Of a stretch of 64,000 nucleotides of DNA, positions 5,817 through 60,716 are shown piece after piece (positions within the stretch are counted from its first letter, which is position 1; each line of letters opens with the position of its first letter). Below the pieces are notes generated by a model that was given only the letters and a program-made list of their open reading frames with translations, was not told the origin of the DNA and did no database searches. Source of the DNA: a virus; IMG/VR virus record IMGVR_UViG_3300027779_000028, positions 1-64,000 of that record; one strand, written 5' to 3'. Both the position numbers and the translations under genes were made by a program.

Positions 5817-5823
5817 ATCTATG

Positions 5824-9166: not shown

Positions 9167-9171
9167 GCATT

Positions 9172-9179
9172 CAAAGATA
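9172..9179 (-). promoter_or_regulatory. Bacteroidetes-type minus-7 box TATCTTTG
   Basis: TATCTTTG on the minus strand, 5 bp upstream of the cupin gene ATG (9166). It matches the TAnnTTTG consensus. Transcription would start at or next to the start codon. Confidence 0.6.
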
Positions 9180-9186
9180 CGGTGTT

Positions 9187-10029: not shown

Positions 10030-10038
10030 ATCTTTTTA

Positions 10039-10980
10039 TTATGGGCATGCTGTAACAGCTGTAATTACACCATCTGAACTTACCCCTACAAGCCATTTTT
10101 GAGGTGTGGGGTCTTCGACTAAATAGGTGCCTACAGTTTTTCTTGTTACCGCATATGCATCACTAAAGGCCCAATCGTTAACTACAGGAACGTTTACACT
10201 CCCTGTGACTTTACCTAAAAATATAGTTTTATTTAAAGGGGATACTGTATTAGAACACCCACCTACAGGGTTTTTTTCAGTACATGGTAAGCTTGTAAGG
10301 ACGGTAGGACATTCTACAGTTAAACGCCAACTAGGAGTAGGTTGACCCCCAAGGAGTTCTGCTATCTGCATAGAAAGTGTTGTAGGAGAGCTAAGTGTTT
10401 TAGGTATATAAGCTGTACAAGTAAGAGGGTCTGCAGATGTAGTTAAGCTAGCTGACCCTGCAGAAACCTCAACGGTAGTAGTGTTACCATTTGGTGTATA
10501 AATACTATTATAGAAATCATATTCAATTATACTACCATGAGGACTACCCGTTATTAAAGACCCTACATTAGCGCTATTCCCCATATATGTTAACCCATCC
10601 GTAACTGAGGTAGCATGGTATCCATCTACTTCGGAGCTGAACTCATTAAACACACCGTTATTATAGATACCACGTATCCCATCGGGGATATCTCCCGGAG
10701 AAAAAGATACTTTTATAGCACCTATTGCGGAGCCTAACTCTATAGAGATAAGATATAGACCTAAAGAATTAGGACTGTTTATTGATACACCTCCGCAGGC
10801 TGTTGAGCATGACGGACATTGAGCTCTAGGGAGAAGGACACAGTTTAGTAACTGACGCACAGTCCCCTCTTGGCTATACCATCCATTGGGGGCACAGGTA
10901 GTAAACGCAGAGTCCATAAAAATTCCCGTTGCCGTTACTAGGTTAGGCCCGTTTAAGTAAAAACTTCCGATAGTTCCCAT
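10039..10980 (-). CDS. Cysteine-containing tail structural protein, 313 aa
   Basis: Ser/Thr/Gly-rich beta protein. The N-terminus has an APNGWYSQEG motif and then a cysteine cluster (LPRAQCPSCSTACGG, about residues 50-67), with further cysteines near the C-terminus. The cluster could bind metal or form disulfides after release. It directly follows the 1558-aa nozzle-like gene, whose C-terminus is also cysteine-rich, so the two may interact. Assigned as structural from context and composition. Confidence 0.65.
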   Translation of the reverse strand: MGTIGSFYLNGPNLVTATGIFMDSAFTTCAPNGWYSQEGTVRQLLNCVLLPRAQCPSCSTACGGVSINSPNSLGLYLISIELGSAIGAIKVSFSPGDIPDGIRGIYNNGVFNEFSSEVDGYHATSVTDGLTYMGNSANVGSLITGSPHGSIIEYDFYNSIYTPNGNTTTVEVSAGSASLTTSADPLTCTAYIPKTLSSPTTLSMQIAELLGGQPTPSWRLTVECPTVLTSLPCTEKNPVGGCSNTVSPLNKTIFLGKVTGSVNVPVVNDWAFSDAYAVTRKTVGTYLVEDPTPQKWLVGVSSDGVITAVTACP

Positions 10981-10989
10981 TAGATATGA

Positions 10990-13900
10990 TTATGTGCAAT
11001 CGCACTCTGTTATTGTAAAATTAACTCCTGTTGTTGGTCCTGAAACAATAGTTATAGCTCCATCTGCACAAAGGGTAACACTGTTATTAGCTCCTAAAGT
11101 AATATTTGTCTTTACGCCCCCACAAGTTGTATAATTTAAAACTACTTGAGAAGATGTAGTGTTATTTATTAACCACGATATACACTCCCCAACCCCGCAT
11201 GCACAAACACAGCAGGCATCTGCTGCGCTTATAGTGCTGCTACATAAATCTGCTTCCGTAGCTGTTGAGTAGTTCCAAACAAGATAGAGGTAGTCATTAT
11301 TATTTGTTGAGGGCATAGAAAAGCTAGCCGAAAAAGTAGGCGTAGTTCCCGTAGGGTTAAGCGTCGCTGCAGCAGCAAGTAAATTTGATATACCTGCTTC
11401 AGTATTTGGATATAAAGTAGAGCTCTTTAGCCATAAAAATTTATCTGTAGCTACGTTTAAATTGTAATCATCTGTCGATTGCTTATCCGAAATCATATAT
11501 ACCGTAGCTCCCTGAGCAGGGATAACCCCCGCTCCTTGAGGCCCTGTTATCTCAGAATATTGAGATACCACACGAGCATATGTAGAGGTTAGAAATAGAA
11601 TTTGATTCGAGTGGGTAGGAGAAGAAAATGACCCGTCTATCCAACGATATTGATTATGAATTAATTTACCTTCATCGGAATTGTTAGTTAGAGTAACTAA
11701 AACAATATTAATGGTATCTGCTACAGGGCACCCTACTGAAAAGTTAACCAAAGCAGTATCATCTGCTGAAGGAACGGAGAATACAATATCCAACTGCTCG
11801 GCTGAAACAGAGTTTTTTACAATCGTTACAGTACCTGCAGCGCTAAAAGGCCCATGAGTAGTCGTGGAACCGTTATAAGTAGCGGTAAAAGAAAAAGTGT
11901 CGCTTACAAGGGGAGCAGGCCAAGATATTATTACATCCCCTACCGTGCCTCCAAGGTTATAACACACACTTACGTCTTTACCCTGTATAGAATACATTTG
12001 AGTTACTCCACATTTTATACATGAAATCTTTTCAGGTATAGTAGTAAGATTATTCCCAAGAACATACTCATTCATATACGGGTCATACCCTCCAAGTTTT
12101 TGGGTAGTAAAGTTTGAGATAAACATATCCCTAAACCAACTTCTCATACCTGCTTCTGAAACTACTGCAAGAGATTCCGCAGGTCCATTTCCTGTGAGTT
12201 GGATAACAGACCCTCTCTTGGCATCTGTAAAGTATTTAGACGGCCCCCATTGAGCAAAACTCTCAGGGTTATTGCTAATTCCAAACTCTTCTACTCTAGC
12301 TATCTGTGTTCCTAAAATTTGAGGAACTGAAGCGACAACACCCCCTCCGGTAGAATCGGATATAAGATTCTTACTCGCAAGGACATACGATATCTTATCT
12401 TCTTGAAGGACAAGGATATTGGTATCTTGAGCCACCATCTTTTCGATAGGACCAAAAGACTCTTCTAAAGGTTTAAAGTTAGCAAGACCAAGGTTAAATT
12501 CATTTAATCTATTTAAGTTAAACTCATTATTAAAAACCCCGCTATATGTCATATCCGCATATCGGTCTGCTCTTTTAAAGTCTTGAGCAGCTACTGCAGT
12601 AACTCTATTCCCAAGAGCGAGAGGTCGTCCTGCCATAGAGTCACGAATCTTATAGCTTTCTACTCCGTTTCCGAAAGCAAAACAATTAAAGAAAGCGGTG
12701 TCAACTACTCCGGGAATATCACCTGCAATATCCTGATTAGTAATATTCCCGCTATGGTTTCCAAGAGCATCAATAGAATACGATTCAGATGACTCATACC
12801 ACACATCAGGTAAAGCATCCATCGGTTCTGTCTCAAAGACGATAGTATTATTGGCTCTTATAACAGTTATCTTACTCTTTATACACGACTGCTTATCGTC
12901 ATTAGACCCACATGCTGCCGTCCCTGTAATAGCTAAACGTATCTCATTAGTCCCACTATCCATAAACCATCTATAGTAATTTGTATAAAGGCTACCATTC
13001 AATCCATAATAATCCATAAAGGAAACAGGTGCAACTGTTAAAACAGGAGTTACATATAAATTTTCAATAGGTTCGGCACCGTCCGACGCTCCTACCTCTT
13101 GCTGTCCATCATCAAGAGTTTCCGCTACATTATCTCCCTCCCACCAATCAATTATATTAGCATATGTTTCGCTAGAAGTGTACGTTTTATCAAACTTATA
13201 TATCCTTCTTTCACACGCCTCATCTCCATCTCCGGTTCCTTGTCTAGAGAACTCAAATTTTAAATTTATAGAACTTCCTGAAGGGATATTATAAATAGGA
13301 TAAATCCCACCACCATTAGGGGTAGATGTATTCACAGAAAAATAATTTGTAAATTCGGCATAACCAACCGTAACGCAATCCTTATTTTCCTTAGAAACCA
13401 AGACGGAATCATCTATTAAAGAGCTATTAAATTCAGAGTTCCTCATCTGCATATATACCCCTTGAGGAACGGGAATAGCTACGCCTGCAGAGTCTGTAGG
13501 TGTAATAAAATCCTTTTCTTGTGCTTTTTTCTCAAGTACGGTAGCGTAAGTGCAAGATTTTAAAGGTCCATTAATATCTTTTTTAACAATAAGCCTATCA
13601 CCTTCCTCTATCTTGGCAGAGTTCTCTCCTTGAAGTAAGAAGTAATCAGTTGCCGTTACTGTATCATAGAAAAATATACTTGTATATACAGTGTTGTATG
13701 ACGCTTCATCAGGTTTAATAACAAACTTATATCTCTTGGCAAAATCAGGAGCTACCTGCGTTATTGGTATAGTAACCTTAATTTGATTCTTATCAGAAGA
13801 CGTACTACATCCAACATGAATGGTGTTGTTGCGGCTTACTAAGGCTGTAGTGGCACGATTGAACTCATCCATATACACCATACCTATTTCATATCCTCGG

Positions 13901-18896: not shown

Positions 18897-18935
18897 AGAA
18901 AAAAAATAAAAGGACGAGGGAATATTCCCTCGTCC
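18897..18935 (-). terminator. Strong intrinsic terminator after the major capsid gene
   Basis: A perfect 24-bp palindrome (12-bp arms, GGACGAGGGAAT) at 18912-18935, followed on the minus strand by TTTTATTTTTTTT. It begins 17 bp after the capsid stop codon. It probably sets a high capsid/downstream transcript ratio. Confidence 0.9.
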
Positions 18936-43221: not shown

Positions 43222-43271
43222 GTATATTGCAATATCTTACGTTTGTGAGGTAGGCAGTTTTGCCGCAAAAC

Positions 43272-43290
43272 GAGTTCGGTCACCGAACTC
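43272..43290 (+). repeat. Early-arm palindrome, copy 1
   Basis: GAGTTCGGTCACCGAACTC, a perfect palindrome with one central base, ending 16 bp before ATG 43307. A second hairpin, GTTTTGC-C-GCAAAAC (43257-43271), abuts it on the 5' side. Confidence 0.9.
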
Positions 43291-43306
43291 AAAAATTTAA
43301 GTTATC

Positions 43307-44044
43307 ATGAGTAAAGTTAAGGTTACACCCGAAGCAGACTTGCAGAATTTTCTTGCAGTCGATTCAGTCCAAAAAGGTCTGAAAATTGTTGAGATTAAGA
43401 ACGGCCTAAAGCAGGTCAATGTCAGCGAGAAGGAAACGTTTAAGCGTTCAATGGAAACGGCTGAGTATATCGGTCAGGCAGTTCTATGGTATGGTGGTGA
43501 GGACGGTAAGATTCAGCGCAAGTTGGACAATATCAAATTCAACATTACCATCTTAGCACGTGAAGTTTTCGACCTAGGTAAGACGCAATTTTATGAGTAC
43601 AATAATTGTTATAAGGCTCATATGAAGAACGATAAAATACTCAAGGAGTATGTGAAATTCGTTGAGATGCAAAAGAAGGCCGGAGAGAATGAGAAATATA
43701 CTTTGCTTGGATTCCTTCGATATGCTAATGAGGAGGAGACCGGAGAAGATGAGGACTTAATCGACTACCCTACGAAGTTCGTAACCGGTAAGGGCAAGGC
43801 CGCAATAAAATGCCGCATGACGTCTGATGATGTCATTGACTTGCAAGGCAATTCGATTGATGACGTGCTGAACGTAGCGGAGCACCTTGTAAAGCAACTG
43901 CTTAAGATGATGGCTAAGGGTAAGGCGAAGGCCAAAGCCCCGGTAAGCGCAAGCGGTAAGGAACTCTTTGAGGCACTCGGTATGACGTCCGAAGCCGTTA
44001 AGGGTAAGGCGAAGGCCAAAGCTAAGAGTAAGGCGAAGGCGTAA
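43307..44044 (+). CDS. First early gene: protein with a histone-like basic tail, 245 aa
   Basis: Residues 1-190 are helical and mixed-charge (SEKETFKRSMETAEYIGQAV; NITILAREVFDLGKTQFYEY), with an acidic EEETGEDEDLIDY stretch. The last 50 residues repeat KGKAKAK (two blocks around an ordered ELFEALGMTSEAV), like H1/HU-type tails that bind DNA. No enzymatic motif. As the first early gene with a large basic tail it may act on host or phage DNA organisation; inferred. Confidence 0.75.
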   Translation: MSKVKVTPEADLQNFLAVDSVQKGLKIVEIKNGLKQVNVSEKETFKRSMETAEYIGQAVLWYGGEDGKIQRKLDNIKFNITILAREVFDLGKTQFYEYNNCYKAHMKNDKILKEYVKFVEMQKKAGENEKYTLLGFLRYANEEETGEDEDLIDYPTKFVTGKGKAAIKCRMTSDDVIDLQGNSIDDVLNVAEHLVKQLLKMMAKGKAKAKAPVSASGKELFEALGMTSEAVKGKAKAKAKSKAKA

Positions 44045-44058
44045 CGCCTGAGGCCATA

Positions 44059-44112
44059 AGCGGGGGGTGTGACTGAGTCACGGCCTATTGAGATGCGAGT
44101 CTCTCCCCCGCT
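44059..44112 (+). ncRNA. tRNA-like three-way-junction leader, copy 1
   Basis: Closing stem AGCGGGGG / CCCCCGCT (8 bp, perfect), enclosing hairpin GTGACT-G-AGTCAC and hairpin GAGA-TGCGAG-TCTC. It lies in the leader of the gene at 44168. The layout, including position of the last hairpin next to the closing stem, resembles a tRNA without anticodon arm and is shared with 44415-44461. Confidence 0.4.
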
Positions 44113-44120
44113 CTATTTAC

Positions 44121-44146
44121 GAGTTCGGTCACCGAACTCGTTTTTT
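44121..44146 (+). terminator. Early-arm palindrome, copy 2, with T-run (terminator-like)
   Basis: GAGTTCGGTCACCGAACTC (44121-44139) extended by one C-G pair and followed by G and seven T. This copy alone looks like an intrinsic terminator on the plus strand. It ends about 22 bp before ATG 44168, so it may work as an attenuator. Confidence 0.65.
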
Positions 44147-44167
44147 TATTCACTTAATTCATTTACC

Positions 44168-44407
44168 ATGCTTAGTAATAATTTTCGAGTAGTTAGAGCC
44201 GGTCACGTTGACATTGATAGCGTCCGTATTGAGATACGTTACCTTCATATCGGGGGCGTTGACGAAGTAGTGGCCACAGGTCAATATAATATCCGTACGA
44301 ATTGGGCGCACGTTATACGCTTAGAGGACTACGAAGATTTTTTATCCTCTGATTGGGAGGATGAAATGGTGGAGGCCATAGAGAGCCGAAGCATTGAGAT
44401 AGATTAA
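44168..44407 (+). CDS. Early hypothetical protein, 79 aa
   Basis: The start is set at ATG 44168 (MLSNNFRVVRAGHVDIDSVR), after the palindrome; the frame continues upstream through hairpins without support. Beta strands, then an acidic C-terminal helix (YEDFLSSDWEDEMVEAIESR). No family recognised. The ATTTACCATG context is shared with the next gene. Confidence 0.6.
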   Translation: MLSNNFRVVRAGHVDIDSVRIEIRYLHIGGVDEVVATGQYNIRTNWAHVIRLEDYEDFLSSDWEDEMVEAIESRSIEID

Positions 44408-44414
44408 ACACACA

Positions 44415-44461
44415 AGCGGAGTCATTGCGTGACTAGGGGAGATTCGCACCTCTCCTTCGCT
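44415..44461 (+). ncRNA. tRNA-like three-way-junction leader, copy 2
   Basis: 7-bp closing stem AGCGGAG / CTTCGCT (one G-U), inner hairpin GTCA-TTGCG-TGAC, and a T-arm-like GGGAG / CTCTC hairpin with ATTCGCAC loop. Sequence and order match 44059-44112. Lies in the leader of the 62-aa gene. Confidence 0.4.
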
Positions 44462-44491
44462 CTAATTTTATAAACCCTTAATCCATTTACC

Positions 44492-44680
44492 ATGCATAAT
44501 TTTCAATACACACGAAACCTAGAAAAGCAAGTGACCGAACTACAAGCGGCCTTGCTGCGATGTCTTACTGAAATAAGAGAGAAGGACAAAAATATAACTT
44601 CCTCAGAGAAAAATCTTGAGATAGTAACGGACGAACGCGATTCGTGGAAGGATAAAGCGTGCGAACTTCAATTAAACTAA
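44492..44680 (+). CDS. Early coiled-coil protein, 62 aa
   Basis: Almost entirely one helix with heptad-like spacing (LEKQVTELQAALLRCLTEIR) and high charge. ATG preceded by ATTTACC as in the previous gene. Function unknown. Confidence 0.6.
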   Translation: MHNFQYTRNLEKQVTELQAALLRCLTEIREKDKNITSSEKNLEIVTDERDSWKDKACELQLN

Positions 44681-44686
44681 ACCACC

Positions 44687-44914
44687 ATGACAAAGGACGA
44701 AATTATAAACGACTTGCGTAACGAGATTAAAAACTTAAGGCAAGCTATCGACTACCTACAAGAAATAGGTGAATATGGTGAGCCGCAACATGAGGACAAT
44801 GATATGTCTTATCGTGACCAATGTAACGCAGACCGAAGTGACGATATACAAGCGAGATTAGAAAGGGGTGAAATAGACGAAGAAAATGCCGCTGAACTAC
44901 GAATGGGTGCTTAA
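44687..44914 (+). CDS. Early acidic protein, 75 aa
   Basis: N-terminal coiled coil (DEIINDLRNEIKNLRQAIDY), then an acidic, polar C-terminus rich in Asp and Glu. It follows the 62-aa coiled-coil gene by 6 bp and may partner it. No family recognised. Confidence 0.6.
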   Translation: MTKDEIINDLRNEIKNLRQAIDYLQEIGEYGEPQHEDNDMSYRDQCNADRSDDIQARLERGEIDEENAAELRMGA

Positions 44915-44931
44915 CATATACACGTGCTGAC

Positions 44932-44962
44932 TAGGAAATAGACATTAAATAGACTATCTTAG
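44932..44962 (+). promoter_or_regulatory. Early promoter-like repeat, copy 2
   Basis: TAGGAAATAGACATTAAA followed by TAGAC and TATCTTAG. Thirty bases (44931-44960) are identical to 48581-48610. TATCTTAG resembles a degenerate minus-7 box. About 65 bp upstream of the RadC-like gene. Confidence 0.55.
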
Positions 44963-44994
44963 CATAGTAAAGAGAGAGAGAAAAATTACAAAAC

Positions 44995-45012
44995 GAGTTC
45001 GGTCACCGAACT
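44995..45012 (+). repeat. Early-arm palindrome, copy 3
   Basis: GAGTTCGGTCACCGAACT, then the A-rich leader GAAATAGATATAAG and ATG 45027. Confidence 0.9.
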
Positions 45013-45026
45013 GAAATAGATATAAG

Positions 45027-45467
45027 ATGAAAAAGACAGAGATTGCAGAAGTGCAACCAAAATACAAGAGAAAGAATATGTCGGGTGTCCCTTCGATTCA
45101 TAGCAGTAAAGACTGCAACGAGATATTAAGGGTATTCTTTACGGACGTAACATATAAAGAGCAGTTCTTTATCATGTTATTAGATAGAGCAAATAACGTT
45201 CTAGGAGTTTCAAAAGTTTCTGAGGGCGGTTGTGCCGGGACTGTTGTAGATGGAAAGATAATTTTCCAAACTGCGTTAATATCGAACGCTCAAGCTATAA
45301 TCCTATGCCACAATCATCCAAGCGGCCAACTATTTCCGAGTACGTCAGACTTAAATTTAACTGACAAAATACGAATGTTTGGTGGGTACATAGATATAAA
45401 AGTTTTAGACCACCTGATAATTACGCGAGATGGGTTTTACTCATTCGCTGATAATGGAAAAATGTAA
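45027..45467 (+). CDS. RadC-like JAB/MPN metalloprotein, 146 aa
   Basis: Carries the JAMM/RadC signature ILCHNHPSG ... STSDLNLT (H95, H97, D108), preceded by GTVVDGKIIFQTALISNAQAI. The N-terminal helix-hairpin-helix of cellular RadC is missing, so this is a stand-alone JAB domain. Such proteins are frequent on mobile elements and in DNA-metabolism clusters, with unclear substrate (possible isopeptidase/peptidase). It has its own promoter-like repeat and palindrome leader. Confidence 0.85.
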   Translation: MKKTEIAEVQPKYKRKNMSGVPSIHSSKDCNEILRVFFTDVTYKEQFFIMLLDRANNVLGVSKVSEGGCAGTVVDGKIIFQTALISNAQAIILCHNHPSGQLFPSTSDLNLTDKIRMFGGYIDIKVLDHLIITRDGFYSFADNGKM

Positions 45468-45693
45468 TAACTGAGGAAAGTAAGTCGAGCTACCCTTATT
45501 AGAGTAGGGAATATAGGGCGCATTAAAATCAGTAAAATAGCAGTCATGGTGATTGTGTGTAAGCGATAAACTCCACCTATTTTCACATCGAGACATTCTC
45601 GGTGGTAGGTCACTAAGTGAGACTAGCAGATGGAATAGAAAAGGCCTGCAAGTGAAACACAATATGAGTTCGATTCTCATGCTGTTACTAACC
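45468..45693 (+). ncRNA. Structured non-coding region with a canonical T-arm at its 3' end
   Basis: 226 bp between the radC-like gene and a palindrome, without a credible ORF. The 3' end has T-stem ATGAG / CTCAT with loop TTCGATT (45664-45680), then GCTGTTA, which can pair with TAGCAGT at 45538-45544 (two G-U). Other hairpins are CGAGA-CAT-TCTCG, TCACT-A-AGTGA and ACCTA/TAGGT. No complete tRNA cloverleaf could be drawn. It may be a tRNA-derived or tRNA-mimicking RNA. Confidence 0.4.
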
Positions 45694-45712
45694 GAGTTCG
45701 GTCACCGAACTC
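45694..45712 (+). repeat. Early-arm palindrome, copy 4
   Basis: GAGTTCGGTCACCGAACTC directly after the T-arm-containing region, 14 bp before ATG 45727. Confidence 0.9.
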
Positions 45713-45726
45713 AAAATATCCATACA

Positions 45727-46122
45727 ATGGAAAATTTATCTAAGACCATAGCTGAGGTCAAATCAGCACTAGACCAAGCAACTCAAATGCTTGACGAAAA
45801 TCAAAGTCTAAGAGACGAGATTCAAAGTCTCAAGTTAAGTCCAAACGCTCACCGCAACGAGCGTGAACTAAGGATTGCTCAACTTTCTTTCGAGCAAGGA
45901 ATAGAGTCAGTCTTATCTCAGCTAAGAGACAACGAGTTTGAAACCGAACATTCGGTTGAGGAGTCATGCTATGAGAACGGCTTTGAAGTGACCTTCCAAA
46001 AAGAAGTAGATGTTTGTATACCTATTAGCGAAATCATTGACGAACATTATAGTAAGGAGTCGCAAGAGGTTATTGATGCGATGTTAATGGACGAAGTTAT
46101 TAATGGCGATAAAATCAAATAG
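45727..46122 (+). CDS. Early coiled-coil/acidic protein, 131 aa
   Basis: The start is set at ATG 45727 (MENLSKTIAEVKSALDQATQ) after the palindrome. Residues 1-40 form a coiled coil. The C-terminal 60 residues are beta/acidic (FEVTFQKEVDVCIPISEIID). No family recognised. Confidence 0.6.
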   Translation: MENLSKTIAEVKSALDQATQMLDENQSLRDEIQSLKLSPNAHRNERELRIAQLSFEQGIESVLSQLRDNEFETEHSVEESCYENGFEVTFQKEVDVCIPISEIIDEHYSKESQEVIDAMLMDEVINGDKIK

Positions 46123-46129
46123 AGAAAGA

Positions 46130-46357
46130 ATGATAAAGATTTACTTACCCTTATTAAAGGAACAGAAAGAAAGAAAGATATTATTTTCTTCTACGCTATC
46201 CGAGTGCAGATTTGAAACGTCTGAGAGTACACGACATGAATTAAGCAAAGATTTATGGACTGATGACAACAAAGAATTTGAGAGGCGCGAAGGACTACTA
46301 AAAGATGATAGTTTTTTCAATATGTCGCCTTATAACTATAATATAATCCGAAGTTAA
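46130..46357 (+). CDS. Early hypothetical protein, 75 aa
   Basis: The ATG at 46130 (MIKIYLPLLKEQKERKILFS) is chosen because it follows the previous stop by 7 bp. An ATG at 46103 would give 84 aa and overlap it by 20 bp. Charged, probably helical; C-terminus SPYNYNIIRS. No family recognised. Confidence 0.5.
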   Translation: MIKIYLPLLKEQKERKILFSSTLSECRFETSESTRHELSKDLWTDDNKEFERREGLLKDDSFFNMSPYNYNIIRS

Positions 46358-46358
46358 G

Positions 46359-46727
46359 ATGAATAAGAATCCCCAAGACCAAGAAGCAGTAATTAGCGTA
46401 CTGCTCTCCACTATTGAGAAATTACGCGAAGAACTTAGAGATAGTAATGAAGCAATTTCACACTATCAAGACGTTGAACGCACCTTGTTAAAAAATCAAG
46501 GTCTAACCGGAGAGGAAGTAGAATATGTAAACCCTAGTAATACGCCCCCATGCCATGACGAATTGCATGAGTGGGCGAAAGTTAATCTCTTACCACAAGA
46601 AGATGCCGAGACACAATTAAGATTTGGGAGAGGAGAGGAAAGTTATGACGAGGACTATATATTACATAGATGGAAACTAGCCGAGTTCGGTCACCGAACT
46701 ATAAATTGGAAAAGAAAACATGGGTAA
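46359..46727 (+). CDS. Early hypothetical protein, 122 aa
   Basis: N-terminal coiled coil (LSTIEKLREELRDSNEAISH), then a polar middle (GEEVEYVNPSNTPPCHDELH) and an acidic segment. The last codons run through palindrome copy 5, read as EFGHRT, so the palindrome is tolerated as coding sequence. The end overlaps the next gene. Confidence 0.6.
   Translation: MNKNPQDQEAVISVLLSTIEKLREELRDSNEAISHYQDVERTLLKNQGLTGEEVEYVNPSNTPPCHDELHEWAKVNLLPQEDAETQLRFGRGEESYDEDYILHRWKLAEFGHRTINWKRKHG
46683..46700 (+). repeat. Early-arm palindrome, copy 5 (inside coding sequence)
   Basis: GAGTTCGGTCACCGAACT in the 3' end of the 122-aa gene, 19 bp before ATG 46720. The position relative to the next ATG is kept although the site is coding. 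Confidence 0.9.
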
Positions 46728-46878
46728 CTACACTAACGCTCAAATAGAATCTATGTACCTAGATTGGTTCAATAATTTCCTATCAGGCCAAGCGTGGCGA
46801 GATTATTACAACCTAAGCATGGCTGAGGGGGAAAATATCTTAGACATTGGCAGTAAACTAAATAATAAGAACGCATGA
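46720..46878 (+). CDS. Early small protein, 52 aa
   Basis: ATG 46720 to TGA 46878, starting MGNYTNAQIESMYLDWFNNF, then LSGQAWRDYYNLSMAEGENI. Helical, resembling small phage proteins with a WFNNFLTVxxFAEYY theme. It follows palindrome copy 5 and overlaps the next gene by 4 bp. Confidence 0.65.
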   Translation: MGNYTNAQIESMYLDWFNNFLSGQAWRDYYNLSMAEGENILDIGSKLNNKNA

Positions 46879-47309
46879 GAACTATAACGACAAAAGTATA
46901 TAAAATATACGAACACTCTAACCGAGAAAAGTGTTATGAGTGGATAAGAGAAAATTGGTACGACTTAAACGAGCATAGCCTTCGTGATGTAGTTGAAAGT
47001 ATTAACGCCCTGACAAAAATAATTGGAGGCTCAAATGACTATTCAATAAGCCAAAACCCCGATAGAAATGAATTTATAAATTTCAGGGATTATGACGAAG
47101 AAGAATTAAGCAAACTTGATGCGCAAAAATGTCCCTTAACCGGAACTTGGTGCGATGTCGATGTGATTGAAGGATTAAGAGAGAAGAATATGAGTAAATT
47201 ATTAAATGCTATACACGAAGAAACTGAGTACATGTATTCAGATGAGGGATTATTTGAATTATGCGAATGTAACGAGTATGAATTTGATGAGGAAGGAAAT
47301 ATACACTAA
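46875..47309 (+). CDS. Early hypothetical protein, 144 aa
   Basis: Acidic protein: MRTITTKVYKIYEHSNREKC, then YEWIRENWYDLNEHSLRDVV and an acidic C-terminus (LCECNEYEFDEEGNIH). The start resembles a phage family in which a YkfeEL...K.y.wiRenw segment is followed by helices; function unknown. Confidence 0.65.
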   Translation: MRTITTKVYKIYEHSNREKCYEWIRENWYDLNEHSLRDVVESINALTKIIGGSNDYSISQNPDRNEFINFRDYDEEELSKLDAQKCPLTGTWCDVDVIEGLREKNMSKLLNAIHEETEYMYSDEGLFELCECNEYEFDEEGNIH

Positions 47310-47311
47310 CC

Positions 47312-47330
47312 GAGTTCGGTGACCGAACTC
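47312..47330 (+). repeat. Early-arm palindrome, copy 6 (centre base inverted)
   Basis: GAGTTCGGTGACCGAACTC: both arms intact, central C changed to G. 19 bp before ATG 47350. Confidence 0.9.
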
Positions 47331-47349
47331 TTAATATAAGAAAGAAATA

Positions 47350-47532
47350 ATGGAGATGAATGACTACAAAAACCCGCCTAACCCGTACCACGAAGCTAAA
47401 TTTGAAGCGTGGAAAAACTACACTGATGCGTACCATTTCGGTGCACCCATGCGCATACAAGAACGGCTATACAAAGCCTTCGAAATAGCTAGTGAACACT
47501 ACGAAAATAACCCCCAAACAATATTCAATTAA
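47350..47532 (+). CDS. Early small protein, 60 aa
   Basis: Short polar/aromatic protein (KNPPNPYHEAKFEAWKNYTD, FGAPMRIQERLYKAFEIASE). Helical in the second half. No family recognised; it precedes the first NKLIAEFMG paralog by 2 bp. Confidence 0.6.
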   Translation: MEMNDYKNPPNPYHEAKFEAWKNYTDAYHFGAPMRIQERLYKAFEIASEHYENNPQTIFN

Positions 47533-47534
47533 TC

Positions 47535-47792
47535 ATGAACAATAATAAACTTATAGCAGAATTTATGGGGGAGGAACAGTTATGCTTACCTCACGAACTA
47601 AAATACCACACCTCGTGGGATTGGTTGTGGCCGGTAATAATTAAGTGCAAGGAATCAATAGACTATTGCAGTGATGATAACGCACTTAAGTACCACAACA
47701 TAGAGGATGAGATGTTATCTCAGCTATCTATAGAGGATACATACAACGCAGTAGTAGAATTTATTAAAACATATAACAATGACACAATTTGA
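47535..47792 (+). CDS. NKLIAEFMG-family small phage protein (1 of 4), 85 aa
   Basis: Begins MNNNKLIAEFMGEEQLCLPH, with a central KYHTSWDWLWPVI and C-terminal TYNAVVEFIKTYN. This three-block pattern is a widespread uncharacterised family in Bacteroidetes and marine phages, typically multi-copy in early regions. Four copies lie within 4.2 kb here. Probably binds a host or phage protein; unknown. Confidence 0.75.
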   Translation: MNNNKLIAEFMGEEQLCLPHELKYHTSWDWLWPVIIKCKESIDYCSDDNALKYHNIEDEMLSQLSIEDTYNAVVEFIKTYNNDTI

Positions 47793-48282
47793 ACAAGACT
47801 TAAAGCAAGATTTAAGCGTAAACGGAAAAGACTCATCCAAAGGGATGTGGAATCTCATAGTATCTAAGCGCGACTTAGGACTATGGAGTAAGATAGGTAT
47901 GAAACCTAATAGACATTGGAAAGTTACTGATGTCAAGAAATACTTCGGACTCAAGGGCAACAAGCATAAGATATACGAGGACATATGTAAGATGGTGGAT
48001 GAGTACACTAAGCTACCGACCATGACACGCAACGACTTCATTGAAAAATACTTTGTACCTACGCTGAACGAGAAGGAAAAGGAAGGTGTAGCGTTAGGGT
48101 TTATAGGTTGGGAAGATAGCTTCCTAGATGAGTGGGGGAAGAAGGTAGGAGTAACCATAGACCATAACGCTGACCGAGAGCAATGCGATGGGTGTGAAGA
48201 ATACTTTGAGGGGGATGATATGTCCTACAATGATGATAACGATAATGTTGAATGTGATACGTGCTACGGCACTAAATACTAA
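47779..48282 (+). CDS. Early protein with C-terminal zinc ribbon, 167 aa
   Basis: N-terminal domain with LIVSKRDLGLWSKIGMKPNR and WKVTDVKKYFGLKG (a pattern of recurring small phage proteins), a helical middle, and a C-terminal ribbon CDGC-EEYFEGDDMSYNDD-CDTC. Overlaps the preceding gene by 14 bp. Nucleic-acid or protein binding through the ribbon is plausible. Confidence 0.65.
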   Translation: MTQFEQDLKQDLSVNGKDSSKGMWNLIVSKRDLGLWSKIGMKPNRHWKVTDVKKYFGLKGNKHKIYEDICKMVDEYTKLPTMTRNDFIEKYFVPTLNEKEKEGVALGFIGWEDSFLDEWGKKVGVTIDHNADREQCDGCEEYFEGDDMSYNDDNDNVECDTCYGTKY

Positions 48283-48288
48283 TAAATT

Positions 48289-48576
48289 ATGAAAGACACA
48301 AATCAAGTACAAGAAGCCCTTGAAAACAAGGCAAAGAAAGAACTGCAAAGAGTTGTAGACGAGTTTCAGATATCACTTAACGCACTAGATAAGACATATC
48401 TTCAACCTCGTTCGTATGTCATGCAAGAAAGTCGAAGCACTGATGCTAAGAAGTTTACTTATGTCAGACCTGAGCAAGTAGGGTATATACTTCACGACAT
48501 GCTCGTAGAAGCCTACTTAAAACCTATGGTAAATAAAAAGACACGAGAGTTATTAAGTAAACTCGAATTAGTGTAA
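48289..48576 (+). CDS. Early helical protein, 95 aa
   Basis: Mainly helical: ALENKAKKELQRVVDEFQIS, LDKTYLQPRSYV, then a C-terminal helix ending LLSKLELV. Last gene before promoter-like repeat copy 3. No family recognised. Confidence 0.6.
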   Translation: MKDTNQVQEALENKAKKELQRVVDEFQISLNALDKTYLQPRSYVMQESRSTDAKKFTYVRPEQVGYILHDMLVEAYLKPMVNKKTRELLSKLELV

Positions 48577-48581
48577 TTCAC

Positions 48582-48612
48582 TAGGAAATAGACATTAAAT
48601 AGACTATCTTTA
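48582..48612 (+). promoter_or_regulatory. Early promoter-like repeat, copy 3
   Basis: TAGGAAATAGACATTAAA plus TAGAC and TATCTTTA. Identical to copy 2 for thirty bases, and immediately followed by the long stem-loop at 48624-48690. Confidence 0.55.
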
Positions 48613-48623
48613 TATAGTAAGGA

Positions 48624-48690
48624 GGGAGGGGCAATGACCATCTAAGTAGTAATATTTTGATAACTATTAATACTGCTTAGTGCCTCTCCC
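48624..48690 (+). ncRNA. Long stem-loop after the early promoter-like repeat
   Basis: Outer stem GGGAGGGGCA (48624-48633) with TGCCTCTCCC (48681-48690), inner stem CTAAGTAGTA (48642-48651) with TACTGCTTAG (48671-48680), about 20 bp in total with two G-U pairs. It is followed by TTTATT, so it could terminate weakly or act as a small RNA or attenuator. Confidence 0.6.
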
Positions 48691-48711
48691 TTTATTAAAG
48701 CACAAAAACTC

Positions 48712-48728
48712 AGTTCGGTCACCGAACT
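48712..48728 (+). repeat. Early-arm palindrome, copy 7
   Basis: AGTTCGGTCACCGAACT flanked by ACTC and ACAAATAAATATAAG, then ATG 48744. The flanks are identical to those of the covariant hairpin at 48979. Confidence 0.9.
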
Positions 48729-48743
48729 ACAAATAAATATAAG

Positions 48744-48974
48744 ATGATACAAGTCACAATAGAGTACACCTTCAAAGGTGAGAGGCTTAAGACAAAAATG
48801 GAAGCATCGTCTGAGAGTAGAGTTAAAACTTGCGTGGAAATTTGCGAGGAGCAAATTCAACAACACATAAGAGAGTACTTCCTTGACCAATGTGTAGGTT
48901 GGGAGAAGTCAATGGAGTTAGAGCATAAGGAGTTCGCTAAGTTCGATAAGAAGAAGAAAATAACAATAAAGTAA
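48744..48974 (+). CDS. Early hypothetical protein, 76 aa
   Basis: Short protein starting with a beta hairpin (MIQVTIEYTFKGERLKTKME), then helices (CVEICEEQIQQHIREYFLDQ) and a basic tail (KFDKKKKITIK). Between two hairpin leaders of the same type. No family recognised. Confidence 0.6.
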   Translation: MIQVTIEYTFKGERLKTKMEASSESRVKTCVEICEEQIQQHIREYFLDQCVGWEKSMELEHKEFAKFDKKKKITIK

Positions 48975-48978
48975 ACTC

Positions 48979-48996
48979 AGTCTCCTCAAGGAGACT
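48979..48996 (+). repeat. Covariant hairpin at the palindrome position (copy 8, different stem)
   Basis: AGTCTCCTCAAGGAGACT: 7-8 bp perfect stem of unrelated sequence, with the same flanks as copy 7 (ACTC before; ACAAATAAATATAAGATG after) and the same distance to ATG 49012. The stem is conserved by pairing, not by sequence. Confidence 0.85.
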
Positions 48997-49011
48997 ACAA
49001 ATAAATATAAG

Positions 49012-49269
49012 ATGAAACTTAAACAAAGTTTAATAGACAAACTTGTGAGTTCAGATTGGACACGCGAGAAATTAGCAGAGGAAATCCTTATAGCTAGGTA
49101 CTACTCAAAGAAGTATCAAGCAGAGGCACATTGGCTTGACTCACTCGCATCCCATTATCGAGATAACCAAAATGATGATGACTACGCACAAGTATGTAAA
49201 GACCTTTACAAAGAGTATCAAGAGGCTATAGCTGAAAACAAGGAAACATATCAACCCAACGAATCATGA
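49012..49269 (+). CDS. Early helical protein, 85 aa
   Basis: Helical throughout: LIDKLVSSDWTREKLAEEIL, YSKKYQAEAHWLDSLASHYR, then DDDYAQVCKDLYKEYQEAI. Overlaps the next gene by 4 bp. No family recognised. Confidence 0.6.
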   Translation: MKLKQSLIDKLVSSDWTREKLAEEILIARYYSKKYQAEAHWLDSLASHYRDNQNDDDYAQVCKDLYKEYQEAIAENKETYQPNES

Positions 49270-49571
49270 GGAATATTACAATAGACTCAGTCAACGCCTT
49301 TATGAGCGCGACTAAATTCAAAAGACAAAACATGGAAGTTCGTGTACTACCAAACGTAACAGTATTACTACTACATGGGAATGAAATTGCGTATAGGTAC
49401 AACAACCCTGAGAGGACTCTCTCCATTACAAATTGTGGTTGGGAAAGTGTAACCACAAAAGAAAGATTGAACGGAATACCAAATGTAAGTATCTCACAAA
49501 AGAATTTCGAGTGGTACTTAAATGGGGTGCTATGGGATGGGAAGCTAATTGATATCAACAATAAAATATAA
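49266..49571 (+). CDS. Early beta-rich protein, 101 aa
   Basis: Contains MRNITIDSVNAFMSATKFKR, VTVLLLHGNEIAYRYN, then LSITNCGWESVTTKERLNGI. Pattern typical of a small phage protein family I have seen (strand-rich with a C-terminal WYLNGVLWDG). Function unknown. Confidence 0.65.
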   Translation: MRNITIDSVNAFMSATKFKRQNMEVRVLPNVTVLLLHGNEIAYRYNNPERTLSITNCGWESVTTKERLNGIPNVSISQKNFEWYLNGVLWDGKLIDINNKI

Positions 49572-49577
49572 GAAAGT

Positions 49578-49781
49578 ATGAAGAAATTTAATGAATTTGA
49601 AAGCTACCTCATAGAGGAAGCGTTAACCCAACTTATAAAAGATAAGGAGGAGGCAGTTCTAAAAGCCGAAAAAGAAAGTAAAGGTAGATGCATATTTGCA
49701 TCCGGTTACTTCACCATGATAGGTAAGGAGTTGATAGATAAGGTGGTCAATGATATGACACGCAAACCTAGAAAATCATGA
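49578..49781 (+). CDS. Early small protein, 67 aa
   Basis: Helical N-terminus (FNEFESYLIEEALTQLIKDK) and a C-terminal FTMIGKELIDKVVNDM. No family recognised; overlaps the next gene by 4 bp. Confidence 0.55.
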   Translation: MKKFNEFESYLIEEALTQLIKDKEEAVLKAEKESKGRCIFASGYFTMIGKELIDKVVNDMTRKPRKS

Positions 49782-49981
49782 AACACTACGAAGGAAGCGA
49801 ACTTAAATGGAGTACTGAGGACGTACATAGAAACGCCAAGCAACTAAAAGTGGAGTTAACTGAGGCTGAGGCTTTGAGTATACTCAACGCTACGTTTGAG
49901 GACAATGAAGATATTATGCAGTTCATCAACGATGAAATGTCTGACACAATAGGAACTAAAATGAAGATATATGAACAATAA
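49778..49981 (+). CDS. Early small protein, 67 aa
   Basis: Begins MKHYEGSELKWSTEDVHRNA, with LTEAEALSILNATFEDNEDI. Possibly a helix-bundle; no family recognised. Its last codons overlap the next NKLIAEFMG gene by 11 bp. Confidence 0.55.
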   Translation: MKHYEGSELKWSTEDVHRNAKQLKVELTEAEALSILNATFEDNEDIMQFINDEMSDTIGTKMKIYEQ

Positions 49982-50243
49982 CAAACTTATAGCAGAATTT
50001 ATGGGGGTTGAAACTACTGATGGACTTGTGTTTCAAGACAATAACACACATGAGTTTCACCCTATCAAGTACCACACCTCATGGGATTGGCTTATGCCTG
50101 TAGTAGAGAAGATATTAGACCTTTCCTTTCAAGACGATGGGGATGCTGAGGACTTCTATAATGTAAGAGATTGTATGCCTGACATTAATCACACCTACAA
50201 AGCAGTAGTAGAATTTATTAAAGAATATAACGATGAAAGATAA
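49971..50243 (+). CDS. NKLIAEFMG-family small phage protein (2 of 4), 90 aa
   Basis: MNNNKLIAEFMGVETTDGLV, then KYHTSWDWLMPVVEKIL and TYKAVVEFIKEYN. Same blocks as copy 1. It overlaps both neighbours by 11 bp, and the next gene is another member. Confidence 0.75.
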   Translation: MNNNKLIAEFMGVETTDGLVFQDNNTHEFHPIKYHTSWDWLMPVVEKILDLSFQDDGDAEDFYNVRDCMPDINHTYKAVVEFIKEYNDER

Positions 50244-50550
50244 CAAACTAATAGCAGAATTTATGGGGTTAGAAAATCCTTTTAATGAAATTAATGACGC
50301 CACACTATATAAATATAAGGGTGTTGATGAAAAAGGAGAATTTCAATTTAACATTGAATTACACGAAATGAGATACCACACCTCATGGGATTGGTTGAAA
50401 CCCGTGATTGATAAGCTACGTGAGGAGTGTGGCATAGTTACATTATCCTCAAGGATGCACGTTAACCTCTATAGTGATATAGGAGAGGTGTATGAAGCGG
50501 TAGTAGACTTTATTAAAACATATAACGATGAGCAACAACTACATTATTAA
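50233..50550 (+). CDS. NKLIAEFMG-family small phage protein (3 of 4), 105 aa
   Basis: MKDNKLIAEFMGLENPFNEI, an insertion with a beta hairpin (YKYKGVDEKGEFQFNIEL), RYHTSWDWLKPVIDKL, and EVYEAVVDFIKTYN. Longest member of the family here. Directly downstream of copy 2. Confidence 0.75.
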   Translation: MKDNKLIAEFMGLENPFNEINDATLYKYKGVDEKGEFQFNIELHEMRYHTSWDWLKPVIDKLREECGIVTLSSRMHVNLYSDIGEVYEAVVDFIKTYNDEQQLHY

Positions 50551-50582
50551 AACACATTTATGAATAAGGCAAAACTATTGGT

Positions 50583-50687
50583 ATGATATGTAAAGAGAGG
50601 TTGCAAACTCTTGAGGAAAACCCACCCATTTTTTGGAATAAAGAAAGTCCTCACACCTTATTTTTAAATTGCGCTCGTTATAAGTGA
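50583..50687 (+). CDS. Possible small protein, 34 aa
   Basis: ATG 50583 to TGA 50687, reading MICKERLQTLEENPPIFWNK, then ESPHTLFLNCARYK. Composition is protein-like and it sits in a gap of 450 bp with two other tiny ORFs. No independent support. Confidence 0.4.
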   Translation: MICKERLQTLEENPPIFWNKESPHTLFLNCARYK

Positions 50688-50726
50688 ATAAAATCACCTA
50701 ATAGCATAACTAAAAGTGAAAACAAA

Positions 50727-50840
50727 ATGGAAGATAAAGAATTAACAAGCGATTGTTGTGGAGCATCATGCACACTCCCTGAAATGGGGATATGTCCTGA
50801 CTGCTACGAGCATTGTGAATTTACAACATCAGAGGAATGA
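50727..50840 (+). CDS. Tiny zinc-binding protein, 37 aa
   Basis: ATG 50727 to TGA 50840. Five cysteines and a histidine in a zinc-ribbon-like arrangement: DCCGASC (C10, C11, C15) and GICPDCYEHC (C23, C26, H29, C30). I recognise the CCGA...GICPxCxEHCEf theme as a recurring tiny phage protein. Preceded by an A-rich leader. Confidence 0.7.
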   Translation: MEDKELTSDCCGASCTLPEMGICPDCYEHCEFTTSEE

Positions 50841-50855
50841 ACACATTACCCTTAT

Positions 50856-50883
50856 GTGTACACATTTGGTACACAAAGTGTAC
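50856..50883 (+). promoter_or_regulatory. Triple GTGTAC / GTACAC / GTGTAC element
   Basis: Three alternating 6-mers (50856-50861, 50869-50874, 50878-50883) in the gap between two tiny genes. The middle one can pair with either neighbour, giving two mutually exclusive hairpins, or the set may be an operator. Confidence 0.45.
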
Positions 50884-50933
50884 ATGAGCCGAATAAACAA
50901 CTCAATCGGCACAACAATTAAAATCAAATCAAA

Positions 50934-51008
50934 ATGAATGTAATAATAATAGGCACAATAGCCGTACTACTAGGGTTGTACCTAGAGCACCAAAACTTAA
51001 AACCATGA
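50934..51008 (+). CDS. Possible 24-aa membrane peptide
   Basis: ATG 50934 to TGA 51008 encodes MNVIIIGTIAVLLGLYLEHQ and four more residues, a single hydrophobic span with a polar tail. Its stop overlaps the next ATG (ATGA), as in real neighbours. Small size makes this tentative. Confidence 0.45.
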   Translation: MNVIIIGTIAVLLGLYLEHQNLKP

Positions 51009-51208
51009 CTAGAAAAGCAATTAAATACGCGATGAAGAAGTTGCTCATAATCGAAAACGATAACGACCACGTAACTTTTCACGAGAAGATAGACCAACTA
51101 GGTATATACGTGGAGTTCAGATGTGGTAAAAACGTCAGCATATCAGACGATGAGATATACTACCAAGCGGCAGAATATTTAGACAACGAAAAAAGAGAAT
51201 TAAGATGA
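51005..51208 (+). CDS. Early small protein, 67 aa
   Basis: MTRKAIKYAMKKLLIIENDN, then a beta/acidic part (YVEFRCGKNVSISDDEIYYQ). No family recognised; overlaps the next gene by 4 bp. Confidence 0.55.
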   Translation: MTRKAIKYAMKKLLIIENDNDHVTFHEKIDQLGIYVEFRCGKNVSISDDEIYYQAAEYLDNEKRELR

Positions 51209-51474
51209 CTGATATAGACCAATACAGATTAAATCGTATAGACGAATTAATAGAAAAGAACAAAGACCTACAAAAAACTATCCTTGACTATTCAGCAAGA
51301 GTAAACATGTATGAACTTAAAGTAGGCAGACTAAGACGTAACATAAGTAAACTAATAAACGATGAACCATTCATATGCGGTTCATGTAGAGAACATTGTA
51401 GTGAGTACACTTATAGTGAAGATAGAGATGTAGACGAATGTAATAATTGTAAAACAAGTAATCATGAAAGATAA
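51205..51474 (+). CDS. Coiled-coil plus zinc-ribbon early protein, 89 aa
   Basis: N-terminal coiled coil (NRIDELIEKNKDLQKTILDY; SARVNMYELKVGRL), then a C-terminal zinc ribbon FICGSCREHC ... ECNNC. The ribbon suggests nucleic-acid or protein binding. Overlaps the next NKLIAEFMG gene by 11 bp. Confidence 0.65.
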   Translation: MTDIDQYRLNRIDELIEKNKDLQKTILDYSARVNMYELKVGRLRRNISKLINDEPFICGSCREHCSEYTYSEDRDVDECNNCKTSNHER

Positions 51475-51739
51475 TAAGCTAATAGCAGAATTTATGGGTG
51501 GCTACACTCCATATGAAAGATTTGGAGATAGTACAGAATATTATTACAAAGGAGAGCATATTAATTTAAATGATATGCAATTTAATTCCTCATGGGATTG
51601 GTTGATGCCCGTAATTGAGAACATTGACCACTTACAATATGAGTCCGTGAAAGGCATTGAAGATGCATTATCTACAAGACATATAGGAGACACACACAAA
51701 GCGGTAGTAGAATTTATTAAAGCCTATACTCATGAATAA
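51464..51739 (+). CDS. NKLIAEFMG-family small phage protein (4 of 4), 91 aa
   Basis: MKDNKLIAEFMGGYTPYERF, an EYYYKGEHINLNDMQFN segment, SSWDWLMPVIENI, and THKAVVEFIKAY. The central YHTSWDWL block has become FNSSWDWL. Stop overlaps the start of the 59-aa gene. Confidence 0.75.
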   Translation: MKDNKLIAEFMGGYTPYERFGDSTEYYYKGEHINLNDMQFNSSWDWLMPVIENIDHLQYESVKGIEDALSTRHIGDTHKAVVEFIKAYTHE

Positions 51740-51911
51740 AGAATCTCTAATAAATAGAATAACCCTTCTCGATACGGCTTCTTATAGGCGCAATGCGGAA
51801 GGCAACACATACAAACATGAACCTCCTCAGTTTCGCTCTACGTTATTTGAAGTGTATGATAAACTTAGCGAGGCAGACTTAAAAACCTTACTAGACACAA
51901 GGCTACAATGA
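51732..51911 (+). CDS. Early small protein, 59 aa
   Basis: ATG 51732 to TGA 51911 fills the gap between two genes with 8- and 4-bp overlaps. Reads MNKESLINRITLLDTASYRR, with a conserved-looking FEVYDKLSEADLKTLL helix at the end. No family recognised. Confidence 0.65.
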   Translation: MNKESLINRITLLDTASYRRNAEGNTYKHEPPQFRSTLFEVYDKLSEADLKTLLDTRLQ

Positions 51912-52198
51912 TTAAAATTCACTTCATATCGGAAGATGATGAGAGGTCTTATATAGCATCCTTCAAAGATGAAGATGCATACATCTCTTGTCTTGATGTC
52001 TTTGAGGAATTAGCCTCTAAGACAAACTCAAAAATAGAGGAAACTATATATACTGAAAAGAACCCTACCCCATCTTGGGAGGGAGTAGATAAAATACTTC
52101 ACAAAGGGTATTGGTATGGAAAATATGCAGATTTAAAATGTAAACCCACGCAATTCAGTTCGGTCACCGAACTGAGTTTAAAAAATAAAATCAAATGA
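51908..52198 (+). CDS. Early hypothetical protein, 96 aa
   Basis: Alpha/beta protein starting MIKIHFISEDDERSYIASFK. The last codons run through palindrome copy 9 (read SSVTEL). No family recognised. Overlaps the DnaA-like gene by 4 bp. Confidence 0.6.
   Translation: MIKIHFISEDDERSYIASFKDEDAYISCLDVFEELASKTNSKIEETIYTEKNPTPSWEGVDKILHKGYWYGKYADLKCKPTQFSSVTELSLKNKIK
52156..52174 (+). repeat. Early-arm palindrome, copy 9 (inside coding sequence)
   Basis: CAGTTCGGTCACCGAACTG: outermost pair is C-G instead of G-C, still perfectly paired. It lies in the 3' end of the 96-aa gene, 20 bp before ATG 52195. Confidence 0.9.
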
Positions 52199-52509
52199 GA
52201 AAAGACGAAATTTTTGATATATATGTAAAATCGGTATGTGATAGATATAAAGTCTCCGCTACCGAACAAATATTTAAAAAAAATAAGTATAAAGAAGTAG
52301 TGGAAGCTCGATTTACACTATATTATATATGTTATTGGAGGCCCATGAGAGTTAGTAGTATACAAAAATTTATGGGGGATAACGGATATCATATCTCTCA
52401 TTCATGTATCTTATATGGCATTGCTAAAATGACTGACATAATAGATAAAGATGAAGATTATAAAAAATTAATCCTAGAACTAGAAAGCGATGCGGTTCAC
52501 TTTATTTAA
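52195..52509 (+). CDS. DnaA domain IV-like DNA-binding protein, 104 aa
   Basis: The C-terminal half resembles the DnaA DNA-binding domain: VEARFTLYYICYWRPMRVSS, then IQKFMGDNGYHISHSCILYG, IAKM (compare ...DHSTVxHA). ATPase domains are absent. Such stand-alone domains could bind origin or regulatory sites in the early region. The first of two DnaA-like proteins in the window (see 60321-60716). Assignment moderate. Confidence 0.55.
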   Translation: MRKDEIFDIYVKSVCDRYKVSATEQIFKKNKYKEVVEARFTLYYICYWRPMRVSSIQKFMGDNGYHISHSCILYGIAKMTDIIDKDEDYKKLILELESDAVHFI

Positions 52510-60032: not shown

Positions 60033-60321
60033 ACCATACGATTTTGACGTAGACTTTTTAGAAAGCCTTAGGGCTTTTGATAAACAGACCTCCGTTAGGG
60101 TTGTAATGATACTAGAAGATAATGCGGATTCATTGCCAAAAGAAGATGGGTGGATTCAAGAGGCAGGATGTGTTTTAAAAGGACCTTATCCATTTTTCTT
60201 TATGATAAGGTTCTTGCATGAGTATGGTAGTACTCCACTTTTTTTAGAGATTGAAGAAATTTACTGTGACGAATACCTAGATTTTATATTAGAAGACAAA
60301 ATATTAATAGATTTAACATAA
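59998..60321 (+). CDS. Early hypothetical protein, 107 aa
   Basis: The start is set at ATG 59998 (MESRQRYTEEVRPYDFDVDF), overlapping the VRR-NUC gene by 35 bp; an upstream in-frame ATG at 59947 is less likely. Acidic, with PYPFFFMIRFLHEYGSTPLF. No family recognised. Confidence 0.55.
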   Translation: MESRQRYTEEVRPYDFDVDFLESLRAFDKQTSVRVVMILEDNADSLPKEDGWIQEAGCVLKGPYPFFFMIRFLHEYGSTPLFLEIEEIYCDEYLDFILEDKILIDLT

Positions 60322-60716
60322 TGGACACACATAATACAGCTGATTTAAAGCAAATTATAGACGAAGTTTTCGAGCTTGACCTATTTAAAAAGACAAGACA
60401 AAGAGAATATGTAGACGCTCGAAGGGTGTTTTCTCATATCCTTTTAAAGGAGGGAGCTACCCTTTCAGGGGTAGGTGATATACTCTCCCTAAACCACGCT
60501 ACCATTCACTTCTACACCAAAAAATTTGAGTGGATTATTAAGTCAGATATTACCCTACGTGAAAAATATGAGCTTATTTTGACTCGATATAAACCCACTC
60601 CCAAAACTCCTGACGTATATTTCTTTAGTAATAAACAACTAATAGACGAGGTGTTACGGTTGAGAGAAGATGTGAATGTCTTAATTTCGCAAAAACTATG
60701 TCAGTGTAAAAAATGA
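60321..60716 (+). CDS. Second DnaA domain IV-like protein, 131 aa
   Basis: REYVDARRVFSHILLKEGAT, LSGVGDILSLNHATIHFYTK, then KFEW. This is close to the DnaA-type helix-turn-helix (nHATI like DHSTV). A C-terminal coiled coil with CQC ends the protein. Together with the gene at 52195, two such stand-alone domains may recognise regulatory or origin boxes. Confidence 0.65.
   Translation: MDTHNTADLKQIIDEVFELDLFKKTRQREYVDARRVFSHILLKEGATLSGVGDILSLNHATIHFYTKKFEWIIKSDITLREKYELILTRYKPTPKTPDVYFFSNKQLIDEVLRLREDVNVLISQKLCQCKK

Follow-up and report, generated by a model that had tools for sequence, protein, structure and literature searches.

Short palindromes of a single sequence are dispersed through the genome of most phages studied here, and between related phages they change jointly at shared addresses. 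We give about an even chance to the reading that they are lineage-specific binding sites of a dimeric DNA-binding protein encoded by the phage, comparable to operators or stoperators. Such a protein would bind the palindromes as duplex DNA; sitting close to the starts of genes and inside long operons, it would hinder RNA polymerase and so stop or adjust transcription, and the copies in leaders would double as RNA hairpins. The reader may be a stand-alone protein similar to domain IV of DnaA. The roadblock or operator function is suggested by analogy with stoperators (PMC6550527, PMC9283540).

Palindromes in the early arm

The stretch of DNA analysed, called here the window, has 64,000 nt and covers most of a virus record of 65,523 bp. 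It contains eight copies of AGTTCGGTNACCGAACT, all within the early arm (span 43272-52174; Table 1). A search with GAGTTCGGTNACCGAACTC allowing up to three mismatches gave eight matches in the 64 kb, nowhere else, and 0 of 100 in shuffled sequence, confirming the eight near-identical palindromes reported by the first-pass annotation. The absence of copies from the leftward arm, also claimed there, extends to the full record, where that arm has no 17-mer copy and the total is the same eight. The arms are invariant around the constant core AGTTCGGT-N-ACCGAACT, and the centre base of the sense strand does vary, being C in seven copies and G in one. The outer pairs were said to change together, and this stands for the five copies where the pair is formed (G-C in four, C-G in one) and fails at 44995, 46683 and 48711, where it is unpaired; covariation within the window genome is therefore weak. 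As a duplex, the palindrome of the window phage is AGTTCGGTCACCGAACT, and its counterpart in the relative G021 is GAGGGTTCAAACCCTC. Across IMG/VR the exact 17-mer has eight matches, one each, which by our own estimate is roughly what a database this large would yield by chance when 16 bases are fixed.

Every copy ends 13-28 nt before an ATG, counting only those that open a reading frame of at least 30 codons, and the probability that a random position in the early arm lies 12-30 nt ahead of such an ATG is 0.13. This agrees with the location shortly before start codons described earlier, apart from the copy listed at 48712, whose 19-mer starts at 48711; the reading frame positions also bear out that the copies at 46683 and 52156 lie within the preceding one. 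A ninth leader hairpin of unrelated sequence takes the equivalent position before another gene and has the 3' spacer ACAAATAAATATAAGATG in common with copy 7.

Table 1. Position of the palindromes and other features in the window; distances are counted between the last base of the 19-mer and the ATG that follows
Feature	Position	Strand	Distance (nt)	Remark
Palindrome copy 1	43272..43290	+	16	leader of first early gene, ATG 43307
Palindrome copy 2	44121..44139	+	28	11-bp arms followed by T7, terminator-like
Palindrome copy 3	44995..45013	+	13	leader of RadC-domain gene, ATG 45027
Palindrome copy 4	45694..45712	+	14	leader of gene with ATG 45727
Palindrome copy 5	46683..46701	+	18	within 3' end of upstream reading frame
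Palindrome copy 6	47312..47330	+	19	centre G; ATG 47350
Palindrome copy 7	48711..48729	+	14	ATG 48744
Palindrome copy 8	52156..52174	+	20	within 3' end of upstream reading frame; precedes DnaA domain-IV-like gene
Ninth leader hairpin, AGTCTCCTCAAGGAGACT	48979..48996	+		arms AGTCTCC and GGAGACT around TCAA; ATG 49012
Bacteroidota-type -7 box, TACGTTTG	43238..43245	+		26 nt before copy 1
Late-gene leader hairpin, GGACGAGGGAATATTCCCTCGTCC	18912..18935	-		leader of late 248-aa gene
DnaA domain-IV-like protein	52195..52509	+		104 aa; best candidate binder
Second DnaA domain-IV-like protein	60321-60716
Small early protein family, four paralogues	47535-47792, 49971-50243, 50233-50550, 51464-51739
Giant late protein	3-5816, and 60913-65523 of the record	-		split by record ends; 741-12320 in locus L131
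Three-way-junction-like RNA folds	44058-44110, 44415-44461			consecutive early leaders
tRNA-like T-arm elements	45470-45690			5409-5455 in locus L017

This spacing is tighter than an operator needs and counts against the operator reading. It suits the main alternative, in which the palindromes are RNA hairpins only, either a stem-loop of the 5' leader for a phage RNA-binding protein or an insulator, processing or 3'-end element setting translation or stability; on the evidence given below, we consider this alternative unlikely. As Bacteroidota mRNAs lack a Shine-Dalgarno sequence and secondary structure near the start tunes their initiation (PMC6847099), a hairpin placed immediately beyond the region of initiation could plausibly be neutral, or of help, in a leader. 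A T7 tract follows the hairpin in one of the eight copies (44121) and a late-gene leader of the relatives fits an intrinsic terminator, but most copies do not.

Other structured elements were observed in these leaders. The three-way-junction-like folds have z values of -3.7 (palindrome included) and -2.5, with no Rfam match. Elements similar to the T-arm of tRNA (TTCGANT) adjoin palindrome copies in the window and at loci L017, L025, L030, L037 and L056, some of them resembling minihelices of acceptor and T-arm; tRNA calling in the window returned none.

Palindrome families of related phages

By its replication, terminase, portal and groEL genes, the window phage is a relative of Podoviridae sp. 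ctfjg026 (MW202828) and a more distant one of the Flavobacterium phages in Elemovirus; no named phage matched its early region in megablast. Its primase is encoded by 397 IMG/VR stretches, of which the best 80 were examined, and the set of relatives comprises 31 largely complete Bacteroidota-type genomes, window phage included. Most of these have their own palindrome family, such as GTGTCTTCAAAGACAC, GAGGGTTCAAACCCTC, AGTGTGTTCGAACACACT and GTGTCGTTAACGACAC, usually with 5-18 copies each; others have no recognisable family, a few of them bearing sparse degenerate sites. Eight site families occur among the genomes, and as many as four of them share a single homologous address.

The copies of the relatives are found in leaders, in other intergenic places and in coding sequence, on both arms. 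After deduplication (n=224), 93 lie in coding sequence, 53 in leaders and 34 ahead of hammerhead cores, and several are in the late arm. Thus, the proposed specificity for one arm and for leaders is valid for the window genome and does not extend to its relatives; the spread over both arms that was expected to speak against the proposal is partly seen there, with a distribution that is not random. A hairpin is present at these leaders in related phages, often with a different sequence, in line with the first proposal. A pure leader-hairpin device does not account for the copies in coding sequence and in the late arm.

Concerted switching at homologous addresses

Four palindrome families share the address in the terminase gene (codon ~69), three that in the helicase gene (codon ~400), at least three the leader of a late gene of 248-249 aa and four the leader of a GGCT-domain gene, and the family found at each address agrees with the remaining copies of its genome. 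The terminase address holds GTGTCTTCAAAGACAC in ten phages, GTCTCTTCAAAGAGAC in G033, AGTGTGTTCGAGCACACT in G034 and CTCCCATCAGTGGGAG in G035, and the terminase residues follow (ECLQRH, ESLQRD, ECVRAH and SHQWE), so that the palindrome dictates the amino acids. In both terminase and helicase, the palindrome takes the place of existing codons and keeps the frame, insertions being absent in most cases. The helicase copy of G016 and of G017 is shifted a few codons from the address used by the others.

The closest relatives of the window phage, G020 and G021, use GAGGGTTCAAACCCTC where the window phage uses AGTTCGGTNACCGAACT, and the primase tree requires several changes between palindrome types. 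At the leader of the late 248-aa gene, these relatives carry their palindrome as GGACGAGGGTTCAAACCCTCGTCC; the window counterpart (Table 1) still has the old family's stem, GGACGAGGG...CCCTCGTCC, around a centre that has changed. A concerted switch of sequence at shared addresses requires a trans-acting, sequence-specific reader, and structure alone leaves the identity of the copies within a phage unexplained, which argues against RNA hairpins only. These phages offer a natural experiment, where a putative regulator co-evolves with the site set of a whole genome, even overriding terminase codons.

Early gene content is highly variable among the relatives and palindrome copies flank small genes, as could be expected if gene-boundary palindromes were mobile or recombination modules shuffling small early genes. 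That explanation has very little probability, given the in-frame replacement of codons in terminase and helicase and the joint switching of all copies of a genome. Regarding the early genes themselves, the window has four paralogues of one small protein family, and the first early protein, for which tblastn and locus searches gave no relative, falls by clustering in a family present in 21 genomes.

Double-stranded DNA site or RNA hairpin

A reader of double-stranded DNA is well supported by the sequences of the copies. Those in coding sequence (n=93) have no preferred loop orientation, with UCAA:UUGA at 45:44, a ratio that does not represent 89 independent draws, as few homologous addresses supply them; their flanks do not pair above expectation at most positions (position 2, 22 of 93 against 21.9). 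At the innermost variable pair of all copies, C-A mismatches (21) are as common as T-G, that is G-U, mismatches (20). These three properties point to a double-stranded DNA target and speak against hairpins acting only as RNA. Six near-copies in G022-G024 have half-site mismatches (GTATCTTTAAAGAGAC), and would form poor RNA hairpins yet acceptable DNA with two half-sites. The suggestion of the first-pass annotation that the palindrome binds a phage regulator is retained here as putative, on the basis of the concerted switching and this behaviour as duplex DNA.

The leader copies (n=53) favour UCAA over UUGA by 36:9 on the sense strand, a bias that a symmetric DNA site by itself would not produce and that weighs against the operator reading, and they have excess pairing at flank positions 2-5; both observations favour an RNA function. 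The leader of the GGCT-domain gene is an RNA structure, as judged from 19 sequences of the relatives, where 98.8% of cells are paired, both sides have changed in 8 of 9 pairs (compensatory) and covariation reaches 0.643 compared to 0.245 in shuffled sequences, 0 of 500 shuffles being as high. Some phages have their palindrome as the inner hairpin of this leader and other phages have a hairpin unrelated to it; this stem, kept despite different sequences, also speaks for an RNA device. An RNA role in other leaders is likely, and the RNA-level role proposed earlier thus survives, backed by covariation and loop orientation. Comparison of these leaders shows that a site can coincide with an RNA hairpin kept for its own structure, one stretch carrying two layers. 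Both layers are separable, as a terminator-like hairpin and the palindrome stand side by side in G035.

Self-cleaving RNAs are a further feature of the relatives' leaders. Hammerhead cores gave 45 matches over about 80 loci, with arrays in the early-gene leaders of L014, L017, L034, L054, L059, L063, L081, L084 and others; type III hammerheads directly follow a hairpin and type I-like ones lie ~20 nt before the ATG. Their Rfam scores of 35-45 bits (E down to 1e-6) are under the gathering score, so Rfam at gathering thresholds missed them, and none was found in the window. The 34 palindromes just upstream of hammerhead cores are another point for the RNA-only explanation. With these arrays, the processing of phage mRNA in Bacteroidota becomes open to direct tests.

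Promoter boxes upstream of the palindromes

A TANNTT[TC]G box precedes 17 of the 53 leader copies, mostly 26-29 nt away, and 37 of 629 control starts (6%). The spacing of many copies in relatives recurs at copy 1 in the window (Table 1), and a palindrome downstream of such a -7 box would lie inside the transcript. Palindromes with a small loop 13-28 nt before genes, together with a giant protein among the late ones, with about 3.5-3.9 thousand residues, recall the hairpin promoters that a giant virion RNA polymerase uses in phage N4. This possibility was considered because of that protein and dropped, being very improbable: Pfam and PDB sequence searches returned no family or PDB match for the protein, hence no RNA polymerase (a very divergent one could escape them), host-type -7 boxes stand upstream of many copies, and copies lie within the terminase and helicase genes.

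A DnaA domain-IV-like protein as candidate reader

The gene after copy 8 belongs to a ~100-aa family present in 31 of 31 genomes, which is, according to profile searches and modelling, a stand-alone DnaA domain IV with a predicted helix-turn-helix fold. Pfam Bac_DnaA_C (PF08299) is matched by 29 of 29 members scanned (the window member at E 2e-4, below the curated cut-off), and the family profile matches DnaA in the PDB at E 8.5e-8. The AF2 model has a mean pLDDT of 94, and the top three structures by fold similarity are DNA complexes of the DnaA DNA-binding domain.

This protein is a candidate trans-acting binder of the palindrome, based on correlation across phages. A palindrome lies shortly before its gene in six genomes, window phage included, as expected for a regulator that controls its own gene. 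Of 31 families, this one has the divergence that agrees best with palindrome type (0.745; next 0.708 and 0.699), with a label permutation p of 0.0015 that is confounded with phylogeny, and the two runner-up families are each absent from some palindrome-bearing genomes. Between the window phage and G021, which differ in palindrome, the protein has 45% identity, compared to a median of 89%, and Elemovirus NC_055853, with a similar genome plan, has neither palindrome nor DnaA-like protein. Counting against this reader are the phylogenetic confounding, the closeness of the rival families (0.71 and 0.70) and the genomes that encode it with no recognisable palindrome family (G026, G027, G029, G040 and others). 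No gene confined to palindrome-bearing phages was found by clustering. The window also encodes a second DnaA domain-IV-like protein, whose divergence does not follow palindrome type (0.042).

The same protein might bind the sites for replication, DNA organisation or partition, as KorB/ParB-like or titration sites, rather than for transcription. Its kinship with the DnaA DNA-binding domain and the sites over both arms in relatives agree with this, but the strong enrichment in leaders and the boxes ahead of them point to transcripts, making such a role quite improbable. More tentative than the operator-like reading itself, though a possibility to be reckoned with, is that the stand-alone DnaA domain is the master regulator of the lineage, in which case the 5-18 sites and their reader would have changed sequence jointly, several times and throughout the genome, and the sites would have been co-selected as leader hairpins beside self-cleaving ribozymes. 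Should the DnaA-like protein prove to be the reader, phage regulators acting at dispersed sites would gain a new class, one whose DNA-binding domain can be re-targeted.

Comparison with known systems

No literature on these palindromic sites was found, mainly among freely readable papers. Streptomyces phage phiC31 has conserved inverted repeats, about 18 dispersed palindromic repressor sites, which are similar in being palindromic and dispersed and differ in phage group and regulator; we know of no report that they switch jointly within coding sequence or have ribozymes next to them.

In the stoperators of Cluster A mycobacteriophages (L5, Bxb1, Trixie), the consensus varies among relatives in step with the regulator (PMC6550527). 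Like the palindromes described here, they are many near-identical short sites spread over the genome, mostly outside promoters (PMC6550527). However, stoperators are asymmetric, of 13 bp, mostly in one orientation and bound by a monomeric repressor (PMC9283540, PMC6550527), whereas the present sites are palindromes of 16-18 bp, unoriented in coding sequence, where they also occur, and combined with RNA hairpins and ribozymes, with a DnaA-like candidate. Neither a lysogeny gene nor an immunity repressor homologue was identified, so an immunity role is unsupported.

Regarding the ribozymes, the HHphage hammerhead of haloviruses HF1/HF2 lies 13 nt before the helicase start (PMC3088659); here too, as in the relatives of the window phage, a dsDNA virus has a self-cleaving RNA closely preceding a start codon. 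Unlike HF1/HF2, and unlike the window, where none was found, these relatives bear several hammerheads per early arm, the type III ones after a hairpin.
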